NCBI GenBank assembly: GCA_029782355.1
Contig: JAKOUY010000016.1
Location: 496,001-560,000, forward strand
Source of the DNA: Actinomycetes bacterium
GTDB taxonomy: Bacteria > Actinomycetota > Acidimicrobiia > Acidimicrobiales > Ilumatobacteraceae
Direction of reading: 5' to 3'
DNA length: 64,000 nt
Shown here: positions 3 through 49,120 of the stretch, in pieces
Position numbering within the stretch: position 1 is the stretch's first letter
Layout of the letters: each line of letters starts with the position of its first letter
Program-made: the position numbers and the translations under genes
The notes under the pieces: generated by a model
Seen by the model: the letters and a program-made list of their open reading frames with translations, nothing else
The model's database searches: none
What the model was told of the DNA's origin: nothing

Positions 3-1178
3 GGAGGCGCCGCCGCGGCCCTCGGTGCCGCAGGTGCGGCCGGTGCGAGTGGGGCAGGCCCCGGTGCGACCCGGACAGGTCCGGCCGGCACGGGTCCGGC
101 CGGTGCGGGTGCGGCGGCGCCGCCGACCCGGCCGACGACGCCGATCCGTCGACCCGGTGCCGAGCCACCCATCACCGAACCCACGGTGCGCCTGCCGGCT
201 GGTGCGGCCGGCGGCGCCGGGCCTGGTGGGCCACCGACCCGCCCGCTGCCTCCGGTGGGCCGACACCCGGCGGCGGTGCCCACCGTGGCCATGGCCCGGA
301 CCCAACCCCCGAGCGCGACGATTGCGGCCCAGCCCGTGGCGCCGCGCCGCGGCGCGGGACCGGGCCCGGCCGGCGAGGGTCGGCGCCTCGGGTTGTGGGC
401 CGCGCTGGCGCTGCTGATGGTCGGGGGCGGGGTGGCCCTCGGGCTGGTGCTGACCAATCAGCACTCGTCCACCACGGCGGTCACCACGGCCGCGACCGCC
501 ACGCCGCTGCCGACCGTTCCCCAACTGACGACCCCGACCACGAAGCACCGGACGCGCCGCACCACGACCACCACCACGCCCCCGACCACGCCCCCGACGG
601 CCCCGGCGACGACCCCGCCCACCACGCCGGCGACGACCCCGCCGACGACCCCGCCGACGACTCCGCCCACCACCCCGCCCACCACCCCGCCCACCACCCC
701 GCCCACGACGCCGTCGACGTCGCTGCTCGTCGAGTACGCCTCGGTGCCGGTCACGGCCACGGTGGTCGACGAGATGATCCCGCCGGCCGATCAATCGACG
801 CCCATCCCGGACGGCACCTACTTCGGTTCCGTGCAGCTCGCCGGCGGGAGCAGCGTGATCGCCCATCTCATCCCGACGTTCACGGGCGCGGCGTGCGAGA
901 CCCAGGCCTCACTGGCCGGCGCCGAGTGCCTCGACAACTTCTTCAGTCCCGGTGGCCCGGCCTACGGCGTGCCCCTGGCCGCTGATGCCACGGTGGCCGT
1001 CCAGTCCGGGATCCCGGCGACCGATCTGCGGATCAGCGTGGCCGAACTGCAGCGGCTGGTCAGCGGCCAGCCACCGTCGGCCGCCGCGCCGGCCGGCTAC
1101 GCCTTCCACCCCGACGCCTTCGTGGTCACGGTTGCCGGCGGCCAGGCCGTCGACGTCCAGCAGATCTTCACCCCGTAG
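3..1178 (+). CDS. membrane-anchored protein with Thr/Pro-rich linker (5' end outside window)
   Basis: The frame is open from the window edge, so the true start lies upstream; 391 residues are visible. The first ~125 are Gly/Ala/Pro-rich and look disordered. A single hydrophobic segment follows at about residues 130-152, then a Thr/Pro linker (about 157-240) made of TTPP-type repeats, then a ~150-residue C-terminal domain with two cysteines that could form a disulfide. The likely topology is a cytoplasmic N-terminal region (possibly a kinase or Hsp70-like domain lying upstream), one membrane pass and an extracellular domain. The Hsp70-like protein at 45712-49050 has the same linker style. The family of the C-terminal domain is not recognised. 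Coding is supported by GC-rich third positions and by the clear membrane segment. Confidence 0.7.
   Translation, partial: GGAAAALGAAGAAGASGAGPGATRTGPAGTGPAGAGAAAPPTRPTTPIRRPGAEPPITEPTVRLPAGAAGGAGPGGPPTRPLPPVGRHPAAVPTVAMARTQPPSATIAAQPVAPRRGAGPGPAGEGRRLGLWAALALLMVGGGVALGLVLTNQHSSTTAVTTAATATPLPTVPQLTTPTTKHRTRRTTTTTTPPTTPPTAPATTPPTTPATTPPTTPPTTPPTTPPTTPPTTPPTTPSTSLLVEYASVPVTATVVDEMIPPADQSTPIPDGTYFGSVQLAGGSSVIAHLIPTFTGAACETQASLAGAECLDNFFSPGGPAYGVPLAADATVAVQSGIPATDLRISVAELQRLVSGQPPSAAAPAGYAFHPDAFVVTVAGGQAVDVQQIFTP
663..706 (+). repeat. 12-bp tandem repeat encoding TPPT units
   Basis: About 3.7 copies of CCGCCCACCACC run in tandem inside the linker of the first gene. Less regular relatives of the unit extend upstream to about 560. 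The unit length is a multiple of three, so gain or loss of copies only changes linker length. Such arrays are prone to slippage. Confidence 0.8.
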
Positions 1179-45711: not shown

Positions 45712-48700
45712 TCAGGTCGCCGCCGAGGTGTCGGGCGCGATCGCACCGGCTGGGATCGTGACGTCGACGGTACCGACGGGTGGCGTGTTGCCGGCCTGGA
45801 TCTGCAGCTGGTAGGCACCGTCGCCGGGCGCCTGGAGCCCGGTGAAGCAGATCAGGCTGTGATGGAGCCGTTCGTTGCTTCCGAAGATGCTGTCGAGTCC
45901 GTTCGCCGCTTCGAGTGAACTGCCGTCTGGCAGCTTCAGTCGGGTGAAACCGCCGGTGATGTGGTCGATGGTCAATCCCCCGACCGGCACGGCGCCGGAG
46001 ACAAACTCGCCCTCGACGATCAGCGACCACTCGTCAGCGCGCCCGTTGGCGAAGCTGATCCTCGCGTCGCCGCCGGAGCAGGCCCACGGCACGATCTCGG
46101 CGCCGGTGACCGTGTAGGCGATGCCGGATCCGGTGGTCGCCGTCCCCTTGATCGTCACCGGCACGGGCGCCAGGTCCTCGACGACGGTGCCGTCCAGTCT
46201 CACCACCGCCTGGTGGTTTCCCGACTGCCCGAAGATCAACTGCGCCGACTTCGGGTCGAAGCCGTCCGGGAGCGAGGAGGTGCGCAGCACGAAGCGGCTC
46301 GAGGCGTTGGTGTCATCGACCGAGCCCACGGTGCGGGCGTCGAGCGCCACGTCGGAACCGCCCGTGCGGACCGCGATCGGCTCGCGGAACCCGTCGAACC
46401 GGTTGCGCGACAGGTTGGTGACCGTGCCGGTGACCCGCAACGTCTTGTTCGCCGCGTCGGCCTGGATGCTGTCGATGTCCCAGCGCCCGCCCGCCCAGAA
46501 CACGGTGTTGACCTTGGACGGGTCGGTGACCTGATCTGGCGCCACAGAGGCCGCGGCGGGTGTGTCGGCCACGATTGCGCCGGCCGGGACGGTGATGTCG
46601 ATGGTGCCCACTGGACCGTCGGGCCCGGCCTGGATCTGGAGCTGGTAGGCGCCATCGCCCGGTGCCTGCAGCCCGCTGAAGCAGATCACGCCGTCGCGGT
46701 GCCGTTCGTTCGGTCCGAAGACGTCGTCGATCGTGGTCGACGCTTCCAGGGCGAACCCGTCGGGCAGCTTCAGCCGGGTGAATCCATGGGTGATGCCAGT
46801 GATGGTCGTCCCGCCGACCGGTGTTGCCCCCGTCTTGAGATCACCGACGATCATCATCGACCACTCGCCCTTGGGCGAGCTCGACAGGGTGAAGTTGCCG
46901 CTTCCGCCGGCGCACTCCAGTGGGATGATCGCCGCGCTGACCGCTTTGAAGGTGACACCGGATGCGGTGGTCGCCGTCCCGGCGATCGTCAGCGGGACGG
47001 GCGCCAGGTCTTCGAGAACCTTGCCGGTACCCAGGTCGACCACGGCTTGATGGTCGCCGGCGCGGCCCATGATCAGTTGGGCCTTGGCGATGTCGAAGTT
47101 CGGGGGCAGCGAGTTCGACGACAAGGTCACTGCGCTGGTCGACCGCTCGCCGGCGAGGTCGCCCGGCACGTCGACGTCGAGCCCGAAATCGGAGCCCTCA
47201 AAGCGAATCGAGTACGGGTCGTCGAGCACCTCGACCCGGCCGCGAACCCGGCTGGTCACCTTGCCGGTCACCGCGATGGTCCCGGCCTGCGGATCGACGG
47301 CGAGGTGGTTGAGGTCCCACTCGAGACTGCCGACGAACAGCTTGGCTGCGAGGGCCCGGTCGACGGCCGCCGGCGGGGTCGTGGGGGGCGAAGTGAGGGG
47401 CGTCGTCGCCGGCGTCGTGACCGGGGTGGTCACGGGGGGCTGGGTGGCGGCCACCGGTGTGGTGCCGGTGACCGTGGGGGCGACGATCGGGGTGGACGAC
47501 GGGTTGGGCGCCACAGATGCGCTTGGCGTGGTCGCTGGGTTGGTGGCTGGGTTGACGACCGGGTTCGTGGCCAGCGGCGGGACGACGGCCGTGAGTGGCG
47601 GTGGCTGGGAGGGGGACTGCACGGCCGGCGGATTGGTGGCCACCGTGGTGTTGCGTGACGAGTTGCCTGGCGAGGTCGCCGTCTTGTCCGTGCCACCGGA
47701 CAGGGCGATGATCGCGGCGATCACCGCACCGATCGCCAGCACGGCGCCGGCGATCAGCAGGTTGCGCTTCGAGCCCGCCGCGGTGGACGGCGGCGGGCCG
47801 ACCGGGACCGGGGGCATCACGCTGGTGGGGGGTGTACCGCCGGCTGCCGTCGGCAACGGCTCGGTGGACGGGGCGGCTGGCGCAGCCATTCCACCGGCCG
47901 CCACGCCCGTGGCCACACCGGCGACGGCACCGGCGGCTGCGCCCGTGGCGACACCCGCTGGCTTCGGCGTCGGCTCGGTGGTCGGCCCGGATGCGTCGAC
48001 TGGTGCGATCGGCGACGCCGCGCCGACGCAGATGGCCGTCTTCGGATCGATGTCGGCGGTGACCGGCAGGCCGAGGGTCGTGCGGATCGTGTCGGCCACG
48101 AGGGGCAGCCGCGACGATCCGCCCACCAGGAGCACCCGGTCGACGTCGGCGGTCTGTACCCCGGAGTTGCGGATGACCCGCTGGAGGACCTCGATCGTCT
48201 CCATCACCCGCGGCCGGATCATGGCCGACAGGTCGGCGCGCAGGATCCGCACCCGGTCGGACTCGGCCGGGATCCCCAGCACCACGGTGGCCTCGTCGTC
48301 GGTGGCCAGAGCCTCCTTGGCGTCGCGAGCTCGCTGCCGAAGGGCGATGACGTCGGCCGGGTTGGCCGCTGCCGGATCGACGACGCCGGCCCGGTCGACG
48401 ACGCTCTCGAACATCAGCTGGTCGACATCCACGCCACCGAGCCGGTCGATGCCGTCGGCTGCGCCGAGGAGGGCGAAGCCACCGGTGGACGTGCGCCGCA
48501 CCAGGGCGGCGTCGAACGTGCCACCTCCGAAGTCGTAGACGGCGACCACCTTGCCGGGCTCGATGGTCGCCTTGCGGGCGTAGGCGGTGGCCGCAGCCTG
48601 CGGTTCGGTGAGCAGCCGGGCGTTGGCGACATCGGCTAGGCGGGCGACCTCGCCCATCAGCTGAACCTTGTACGGGCCGAACGCTGCGGGGTGAGTGAGG

Positions 48701-49050
48701 ACCACCTCGTCCGGGGCGCGGTCCTCGATGCGGGTCACCTCACGAACCACCCAACGGAGCACGTGGGCCATCAGCTGCTCGGGACTGTACGGCTGGCCGG
48801 ACAACACCAGCGGCGTCGTGTCACCCAGGCGGCGCTTGAACTCGCGGGCCACCGCAGTGGGATCGGACGCGGCCCGACGTTCGGCCTGCTCGCCGACCAG
48901 CACCTGGCCGTCGGGCAGCACGGCGACCACCGTTGGCACGGACGCCGTCCGGTTGCCCAACGTGCAGGGCGTGACCGTCTGGCCGCGGCCGACCGCCGCG
49001 GCGGTGAACGTCGTGCCGATGTCGACACCCAGGATGTACGGCTCCGACAT
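45712..49050 (-). CDS. Hsp70-like ATPase fused to a membrane anchor and duplicated extracellular domains
   Basis: This 1112-residue protein begins with an Hsp70/actin-type ATPase (about residues 1-345): GVDIGTTFTAAAVG, VYDFGGGTFDAALV and LLVGGSSRLPLV. The substrate-binding domain of DnaK is missing. Instead come an Ala/Pro/Thr-rich region, one transmembrane segment (NLLIAGAVLAIGAVIAAIIA, about 437-456), a long Pro/Thr linker and two homologous ~270-residue domains, each ending with GLQAPGDGAYQLQIQAG. The tail should be extracellular. AAGGGG lies just before ATG 49050. Actinobacterial Hsp70-like proteins with membrane anchors are known, but I do not recognise the duplicated domain. Confidence 0.85.
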   Translation of the reverse strand: MSEPYILGVDIGTTFTAAAVGRGQTVTPCTLGNRTASVPTVVAVLPDGQVLVGEQAERRAASDPTAVAREFKRRLGDTTPLVLSGQPYSPEQLMAHVLRWVVREVTRIEDRAPDEVVLTHPAAFGPYKVQLMGEVARLADVANARLLTEPQAAATAYARKATIEPGKVVAVYDFGGGTFDAALVRRTSTGGFALLGAADGIDRLGGVDVDQLMFESVVDRAGVVDPAAANPADVIALRQRARDAKEALATDDEATVVLGIPAESDRVRILRADLSAMIRPRVMETIEVLQRVIRNSGVQTADVDRVLLVGGSSRLPLVADTIRTTLGLPVTADIDPKTAICVGAASPIAPVDASGPTTEPTPKPAGVATGAAAGAVAGVATGVAAGGMAAPAAPSTEPLPTAAGGTPPTSVMPPVPVGPPPSTAAGSKRNLLIAGAVLAIGAVIAAIIALSGGTDKTATSPGNSSRNTTVATNPPAVQSPSQPPPLTAVVPPLATNPVVNPATNPATTPSASVAPNPSSTPIVAPTVTGTTPVAATQPPVTTPVTTPATTPLTSPPTTPPAAVDRALAAKLFVGSLEWDLNHLAVDPQAGTIAVTGKVTSRVRGRVEVLDDPYSIRFEGSDFGLDVDVPGDLAGERSTSAVTLSSNSLPPNFDIAKAQLIMGRAGDHQAVVDLGTGKVLEDLAPVPLTIAGTATTASGVTFKAVSAAIIPLECAGGSGNFTLSSSPKGEWSMMIVGDLKTGATPVGGTTITGITHGFTRLKLPDGFALEASTTIDDVFGPNERHRDGVICFSGLQAPGDGAYQLQIQAGPDGPVGTIDITVPAGAIVADTPAAASVAPDQVTDPSKVNTVFWAGGRWDIDSIQADAANKTLRVTGTVTNLSRNRFDGFREPIAVRTGGSDVALDARTVGSVDDTNASSRFVLRTSSLPDGFDPKSAQLIFGQSGNHQAVVRLDGTVVEDLAPVPVTIKGTATTGSGIAYTVTGAEIVPWACSGGDARISFANGRADEWSLIVEGEFVSGAVPVGGLTIDHITGGFTRLKLPDGSSLEAANGLDSIFGSNERLHHSLICFTGLQAPGDGAYQLQIQAGNTPPVGTVDVTIPAGAIAPDTSAAT

Positions 49051-49120
49051 GACCCCTTCGTCCCCCTTCGTGCCCCAGAGCACGTTAGTGGTGCCGGTGA
49101 TACTCCGGGACCCAGTTGGC

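Follow-up and report, generated by a model that had tools for sequence, protein, structure and literature searches.

An Hsp70-type ATPase linked through a membrane helix to a duplicated, predicted outer domain: a candidate receptor-like surface protein of Actinomycetota

Actinobacterial receptor Ser/Thr kinases such as PknB, PknD, and PknH share a layout in which an inner nucleotide-using domain is followed by a linker, one membrane helix, a stalk, and outer domains that vary. Chaperones of the DnaK/Hsp70 type (PF00012) are recognized by a nucleotide-binding domain (NBD) with its ATP-site residues, a hydrophobic interdomain linker and substrate-binding domain, and a set of J-domain docking residues. 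Here we describe a protein of 1112 residues encoded in a 64,000-nucleotide stretch of DNA (the window) from an Actinomycetes bacterium of the Ilumatobacteraceae (assembly GCA_029782355.1, contig JAKOUY010000016.1, positions 496,001 to 560,000), in which an Hsp70-type ATPase is joined through a membrane helix to two copies of a further domain. This layout, which recurs in a small family whose outer domains differ, points to a type of surface receptor not previously described in bacteria.

The nearest printed description that we found, judging from excerpts of the paper, is of HSP70s without a peptide-binding domain in GAP1-N2, GTPase-centered conflict systems of actinobacteria (Kaur et al. 2020, PMC7159879). 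These resemble the 1112-residue protein in their actinobacterial origin and in having an ATPase domain and no peptide-binding domain. However, neither a membrane helix nor an outer domain is mentioned in the excerpts, and neither gene flanking our protein encodes a GTPase, GAP1, or GrpE (a comparison confined to these two genes, with no GAP1 or DO-GTPase model applied farther out). With DnaK chaperones, the protein shares the NBD and the ATP-site residues, but it lacks the linker motif and the substrate domain, has changed docking residues, and carries a helix and outer domains instead. With the receptor kinases, the Hsp70 family to which it belongs shares the layout, propeller domains, and a below-cut-off PknH_C match; the inner module, however, is an Hsp70-type ATPase, and Pfam matches no protein kinase domain in the 1112-residue protein at expectation values (E) up to 1. 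We found no report of an Hsp70 NBD-helix-outer domain architecture in the open-licence literature, which is weak evidence of novelty. Excerpts of papers on DnaK duplication (PMC11019930) and on one kinase-HSP70 fusion in Pirellula (PMC1262709), and of two others (PMC8195603, PMC5587647), do not describe it.

Architecture of the gene and its product

The gene occupies positions 45712–49050. A first-pass annotation, made from the sequence alone, had placed it correctly and left the strand unstated; the minus strand is the coding one, and the plus strand is interrupted by stops. The open reading frame runs from an ATG at 49050 to a stop that ends at 45712, and an alternative GTG start lies 11 codons upstream, at 49083. 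The Hsp70-type NBD, with its ATP-site residues retained according to the Pfam HSP70 match and a residue comparison (residues 1–346; 48013–49050), is followed by a Pro/Ala-rich juxtamembrane linker (residues 347–428; 47767–48012) that takes the place of the DnaK interdomain linker and substrate-binding domain. Next comes a single transmembrane helix (core residues 432–450; 47701–47757), identified by hydropathy as the one strong hydrophobic segment in the protein (mean Kyte-Doolittle score 2.85). Beyond it lie a stalk, Pro/Thr-rich in composition (residues 451–560; 47371–47700; ∼70% of residues 470–570 are P, T, S, or A), and the two copies of the outer domain, D1 (residues 561–845; 46516–47370) and D2 (residues 846–1112; 45715–46515), all of these features being on the minus strand. 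The copies are 50% identical across 263 aligned columns (E = 5e-89), and the evidence for them is this identity and a family alignment, together with a structural model for D2. The annotation had proposed an Hsp70 ATPase, a membrane helix, and two copies of an unrecognized domain of ∼270 residues. Pfam, hydropathy, and copy identity agree with this order, and the repeat is refined to copies of ∼265 residues, each with two predicted immunoglobulin (Ig)-like lobes.

The third codon position has the maximum guanine-plus-cytosine content in all six segments of the open reading frame (0.82–0.95), and 51 of the 131 identical residues shared by D1 and D2 are encoded by different codons. Given the domain order, the coding-type composition, and the synonymous differences between the copies, the frame with its Hsp70 ATPase, helix, and duplicated tail is a real feature and not a product of chance. 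The same observations bear on the idea that the gene is a decaying paralogue without present function. Its long branch in the ATPase tree (see below) is what such a paralogue might show, but the open 1112-codon frame, the coding-type composition, the retention of all six checked ATP-site residues, and the many synonymous differences between D1 and D2 speak against it, and we consider decay very improbable.

The ATPase core and its family

The Pfam HSP70 match covers residues 6–345 (E = 1e-42) and profile positions 1–369 of 599, stopping short of the substrate-binding part; the same region has an MreB_Mbl match of 21 bits, where the cut-off is 27. We compared individual residues between 31 family members (a group of 30 plus the divergent L067, both defined below) and 20 DnaKs from related genomes. 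At the positions equivalent to DnaK K70, E171, D194, T199, and D201, the residue is retained in 30 of the 31, L067 being the sole exception each time, and at that of P143 in all 31. We take E171, D194, T199, and D201 to be ATP-site residues. L067 (2893–5955, plus strand), in which Hsp70, helix, and FGE parts follow one another, retains just one of the six checked ATP-site residues and is perhaps a pseudo-ATPase.

The docking residues behave differently. According to excerpts of one paper, which also gives the roles of K70 and P143, E206, D211, E217, and R167 are the J-domain docking residues of DnaK (PMC8215388). The position of E206 is R in 23 of the 31 members, the 1112-residue protein among them, and the column aligned with E217 holds L, I, V, or M in 26 (L in our protein). 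R167 is retained in our protein, yet in only five of the 31. The loop of D211 is short in the compared DnaKs too, and this residue was left unscored. The docking residues are thus not preserved as a set. Nor does any of the 28 complete members, including the 1112-residue protein, have a linker-like motif within 80 residues of the NBD end, and none is present in the 16–35 residues that remain in three members cut by contig ends; the result refers to those 80 residues, the residue alignment having ended at 360–375 residues. The motif scored in 19 of the 20 DnaKs (the script did not locate the NBD end of the twentieth), which is no independent control, since the DnaK set had been chosen by its linker.

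Because the ATP-site residues are retained while the linker and the docking charges are gone, the ATP site looks intact across the family and control by J-proteins and a substrate domain looks lost. The loss of the DnaK substrate domain, as first proposed from the sequence, is thus upheld by the early end of the HSP70 match and the missing linker motif, and the docking charges are changed as well. These data also bear on whether the protein is a membrane-tethered chaperone helper, its NBD working on envelope proteins together with DnaK partners or close to a translocation pore. The Hsp70 fold with intact ATP-site residues and the retained R167, a J-domain contact, are in keeping with such a role. 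But the substrate-binding domain and the linker motif are missing and the positions of E206 and E217 are changed, and we give the helper only a small chance.

The organism's own genome encodes one full DnaK (828 bits) and seven further Hsp70 ATPases, our protein included; in all seven the HSP70 match ends at profile positions 369–376. Two more weak matches (42 and 33 bits, in frames of 371 and 336 residues) are unclassified. With the ATPase of the 1112-residue protein as query, some match at E = 0.001 occurs in 57 of 61 genomes (its own and 60 relatives). A distinct group stands out among these: 30 matches in 11 of the 61 genomes, seven of them in the own genome, with 39%–100% identity and >220 bits. 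Below the group, the score drops to 143 bits for the next match, and the DnaKs show identities of about 30%. L067, at 86 bits, falls outside the 30 and is counted in the sets of 31 and 28. Across a sample of the phylum, five of 296 genomes (own included) match the family ATPase at E = 1e-50, a lower bound since six candidates were scored per genome. Nine plasmid records match at 29%–33% identity and are annotated as Hsp70 family protein, as DnaK, or not at all. In a tree of 54 ATPases, 20 DnaKs are split from 34 family members with support 100/99.

We examined the architectures of the 30 members besides the 1112-residue protein; three of these (L050, L056, and L057_12892) are truncated at contig ends, and 28 complete ones remain, the 1112-residue protein among them. 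In 22 of the 28, a linker and a single helix connect the NBD to an outer part, and the net charge is higher on the NBD side of the helix in 20 of these 22 and tied in two. The remaining members comprise three Hsp70-dynamin fusions, two Hsp70-FHA proteins in which no helix is clear, and one with a helix at the extreme C terminus. Pfam matches on the outer parts are diverse: teneurin-NHL (E = 8e-7), a YncE propeller (5e-9), BON (2e-6, with a second BON below cut-off at 7e-4), and FGE-sulfatase (4e-38, 4e-32, and 2e-29). One outer part has a PknH_C match below cut-off (E = 0.0021; 18.4 bits, cut-off 27), and several have no Pfam match. The 1112-residue protein is therefore one of a family with differing outer domains, a point beyond the view of the first-pass annotation.

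Two of these outer domains were followed outside the Hsp70s in the 61 genomes. For the one called A6, the sole other occurrence is in a protein that has a helix and, judged by eye, a zinc-ribbon-like start; the one called A7 is confined to its three source Hsp70s. At L115 (minus strand), a zinc-ribbon-like start (by eye) and a helix precede an outer domain common to two Hsp70 family members. The dynamin fusions have a setting of their own: at L012 (6950–12857), L059 (7634–11513), and L062 (7632–11439), a fusion of Hsp70 ATPase and dynamin-like GTPase is directly followed by a gene with a kinase part. A match to the kinase part is present at each of the three loci, and the L012 copy is a fusion of Ser/Thr kinase and dynamin-like protein.

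The outer domain and a receptor-like reading

The tail of the 1112-residue protein has no Pfam match above cut-off (the best two, with the tail alone and E up to 1, are at 0.017 and 0.22), in keeping with its initial description as unrecognized. A search with the single outer-domain sequence found no copy in the 60 relatives, an initial search of genome contigs with D1 and D2 gave nothing, and neither did a search of viral contigs with a lipoprotein alignment of the domain. A two-row profile of D1 and D2 finds matches in seven of 395 genomes of the class (own included) at E = 0.01. Two candidates at E = 0.005–0.006, L073 and L074, look by eye like a WD-repeat-like protein and a reductase; they were judged to be chance matches and excluded. 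L071 and L072 are lipoprotein-like proteins with the outer domain. L069 (1513–2928) and L070 (1498–3186), both on the minus strand, consist of a TIR domain (TIR_2, E = 2e-23 and 1e-11), a membrane helix, and the same outer domain. They share this domain and the predicted topology with our protein but have TIR in place of the Hsp70 ATPase inside, and are possible surface-sensing TIR receptors. The tail of L049, a protein with Hsp70 ATPase and helix from a related genome, is recognized at E = 3.7e-13 by a profile to which it did not contribute, the runner-up of the set being at 0.092.

An enlarged profile reaches eight of 396 genomes of the phylum and 14 of 395 of the class (own included in both; six candidates scored per genome). 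Among 22 distinct non-Hsp70 proteins with the outer domain, an automatic motif finds a lipobox after a hydrophobic stretch in 18; by eye, L077 has a lipobox and L083 a signal-peptide-like start without the cysteine, and the other two are the TIR-helix proteins. One lipoprotein-like carrier, L089 (2782–3786, plus strand), comes from a Chloroflexota metagenome-assembled genome (MAG), so either the outer domain extends beyond Actinomycetota or this MAG is mixed. Since the relatives of the outer domain follow a lipobox or a TIR domain and helix, the location of the tail outside the cell is well supported, better than by hydropathy alone. Hydropathy, charge, and relatives all predict a bitopic protein with its N terminus inside, one helix, and an outer C-terminal domain.

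In the ATPase tree, the 1112-residue protein groups with L010 and L011 (support 98/90) and L049 groups with L013 and L050 (99/94), which suggests that the two lineages gained the outer domain separately. Forcing the two proteins together is not rejected by an approximately unbiased (AU) test (p-AU = 0.247), nor is holding together the three PknH-like members (p-AU = 0.308).

A model of D2 with D1 as its sole relative has a mean predicted local distance difference test score (pLDDT) of 57.8. The second lobe is poor; the first lobe is fair (ten-residue blocks of 67–88 up to residue 110) and gives generic Ig-like fold matches with Z up to 6.7. We therefore turn to L086, a lipoprotein relative from a MAG of an uncultured Acidimicrobiaceae bacterium, whose model, built from its own sequence and five other rows (D1 and D2 among them), has a mean pLDDT of 92.0 and a predicted template modeling score of 0.84. 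It is nearly all beta and forms two Ig-like sandwiches. The second lobe is closest to Bacillus subtilis YcdA (4r4g; Z = 11.3, root mean square deviation [rmsd] 2.8, 119 residues), YjhA (3cfu; Z = 10.1, rmsd 3.0, 122 residues), and a Listeria protein (4eae; Z = 9.8), with generic Ig matches lower (Z 6–7). The likeness to YcdA and YjhA lies in the Ig-like sandwich of this one lobe of a relative's model; identity is 10%–12%, and no sequence-profile match accompanies it. These three structures are presumably DUF4352-type proteins, although no sequence profile confirms this: DUF4352 is not matched in six family proteins at E up to 1, and a sequence-profile search of solved structures gives nothing under E = 0.2. 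By this modeling, the tail of the 1112-residue protein most likely consists of four consecutive Ig-like lobes. In the alignment, judged by eye, D1, D2, and the TIR protein L069 have two cysteines in common in the second lobe, and these could pair outside the cell. The fold comparison that had been proposed as a check thus leads to predicted Ig-like lobes by way of L086. A common domain of defined role, which would have spoken against the first-pass annotation, is not among the best matches: these are Firmicutes Ig-like sandwiches labeled "putative lipoprotein," "conserved hypothetical," or "functionally unknown," or given a gene name only.

Adhesive Ig-like domains might also belong to a structural, force-bearing anchor, in which an NBD of the actin/Hsp70 fold would assemble under the membrane and hold them to the wall. 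MreB_Mbl matches on the ATPase (below cut-off here, above it in many sister ATPases) agree with this, as expected from the shared fold. So does a Foldseek match of the L086 model to the tandem biofilm scaffold RbmA (E = 1.8e-4), though with a template modeling score of ∼0.25. FGE-like and propeller domains in the outer parts of sister proteins would be odd for a mere anchor, and we regard it as unlikely. The annotation had offered a sensor or a force-transmitting surface protein and not a chaperone, with the ATPase inside and paired domains outside. The relatives of the tail, the charges flanking the helix, which place the N terminus inside, and the loss of linker, substrate domain, and docking residues bear out the surface, non-chaperone part; the choice between sensor and force is not decided by them.

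Computation supports the domain order, the intact ATP-site residues, the loss of chaperone coupling, the outside tail, and the varied outer domains. The reading that we favor, giving it about an even chance, is that of a one-pass receptor-like surface protein with the ATPase as its inner module, because the inner module is constant across the family, the outer modules differ, and this outer domain is shared with TIR proteins and lipoproteins. In such a receptor, the two tandem double Ig-like domains on their Pro/Thr stalk would have as their target a ligand, another protein of the surface, or a component of the cell wall. The Hsp70-type ATPase, free of J-protein and substrate-domain control, would act inside the cell as a switch that depends on nucleotide; when the outer domains gather, the side-by-side arrangement of the ATPases or the nucleotide held may change, and a cytoplasmic partner would read the resulting state. 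Ligand binding, ATPase activity, the inward signal, and the partner are elements that we infer.

Several observations weigh against this reading. The two FHA and three dynamin-like members have no such outer part, and therefore not all family members can be receptors. No kinase bears the A6 or A7 outer domain in the 61 genomes, and none is among the 22 other proteins that carry the outer domain of the 1112-residue protein, so that the parallel with receptor kinases would draw on architecture and the one PknH_C match. The Hsp70-helix family is patchy and rare, as the phylum sample indicates, and the branch of our ATPase in the tree is long (1.06), with relaxed constraint possible. Finally, the analysis found no ligand, no partner gene, and no clearly conserved neighbor.

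A broader proposal, which we put forward tentatively, at somewhat less than an even chance, is that Actinomycetota possess a separate class of transmembrane receptors based on Hsp70-type ATPases and parallel to the receptor kinases. Its members would combine a fixed ATPase, freed from J-protein control, with outer sensors exchanged with lipoproteins, with TIR receptors, and with membrane proteins of the zinc-ribbon kind. If the receptor reading is true, a surface receptor can have as its inner switch an Hsp70 ATPase that needs neither substrate domain nor J-protein, its cycle uncoupled from protein folding, and a defined family with natural variation in its outer parts would serve to test signaling by an actin-fold ATPase across a membrane. 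The outer domain is itself a family without a Pfam model, common to Hsp70, TIR, and lipoprotein surface proteins.

Neighboring genes and tandem loci

Upstream of the 1112-residue gene, on the same strand, lies a gene of the geranylgeranyl reductase family, and downstream, convergent with it, a polyprenyl synthase gene. We compared 30 reductase loci, one of them the own locus. In four other genomes the reductase and synthase are convergent, with ∼22–142 bases between alignment ends and no Hsp70 match between them; in the remaining 25 loci no synthase is seen within the examined flank. The simplest reading is that the 1112-residue gene was inserted into the reductase-synthase pair, with loss elsewhere possible. 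Since the pair is adjacent without an Hsp70 gene in four genomes, a functional link to these isoprenoid genes is unsupported, and the neighbors are probably uninformative on function.

The neighborhood also bears on the proposal that the protein belongs to a conflict or defense system, its ATPase a switch and its surface part recognizing an invader. The occurrence of the same outer domain behind TIR domains is consistent with this, as are the three related loci with Hsp70-dynamin fusions beside a kinase gene, itself dynamin-fused in L012, and, in the excerpts of that paper, the HSP70s without a peptide-binding domain in GTPase-centered actinobacterial systems (Kaur et al. 2020, PMC7159879). 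However, the two flanking genes are the isoprenoid genes and not a GTPase, GrpE, or J-protein gene, and the single PADLOC match (PDC-M61B, E = 3e-5) is confined to the ATPase; we consider a defense role improbable.

Mapping of co-conserved neighbors, also suggested at first pass, gave no clearly conserved one across 26 family loci; the clustering used a crude home-made gene caller and is weak evidence. Besides Hsp70s it yielded six small clusters: transporter-like ATPase genes in three loci and five clusters of two loci each, some apparently frames antisense to Hsp70 genes. Among six neighbors at four paralogue loci, one is without a match and the other five fall in unrelated enzyme families.

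At L063 (3512–11265), three Hsp70 family members stand in a row, two of them bearing FGE-sulfatase-like outer domains. The window itself opens (3–1178, plus strand) with the C-terminal 391 residues of another family member, which has a helix, a long Thr/Pro stalk, and a different outer part and is the second of a tandem pair whose start precedes the window.

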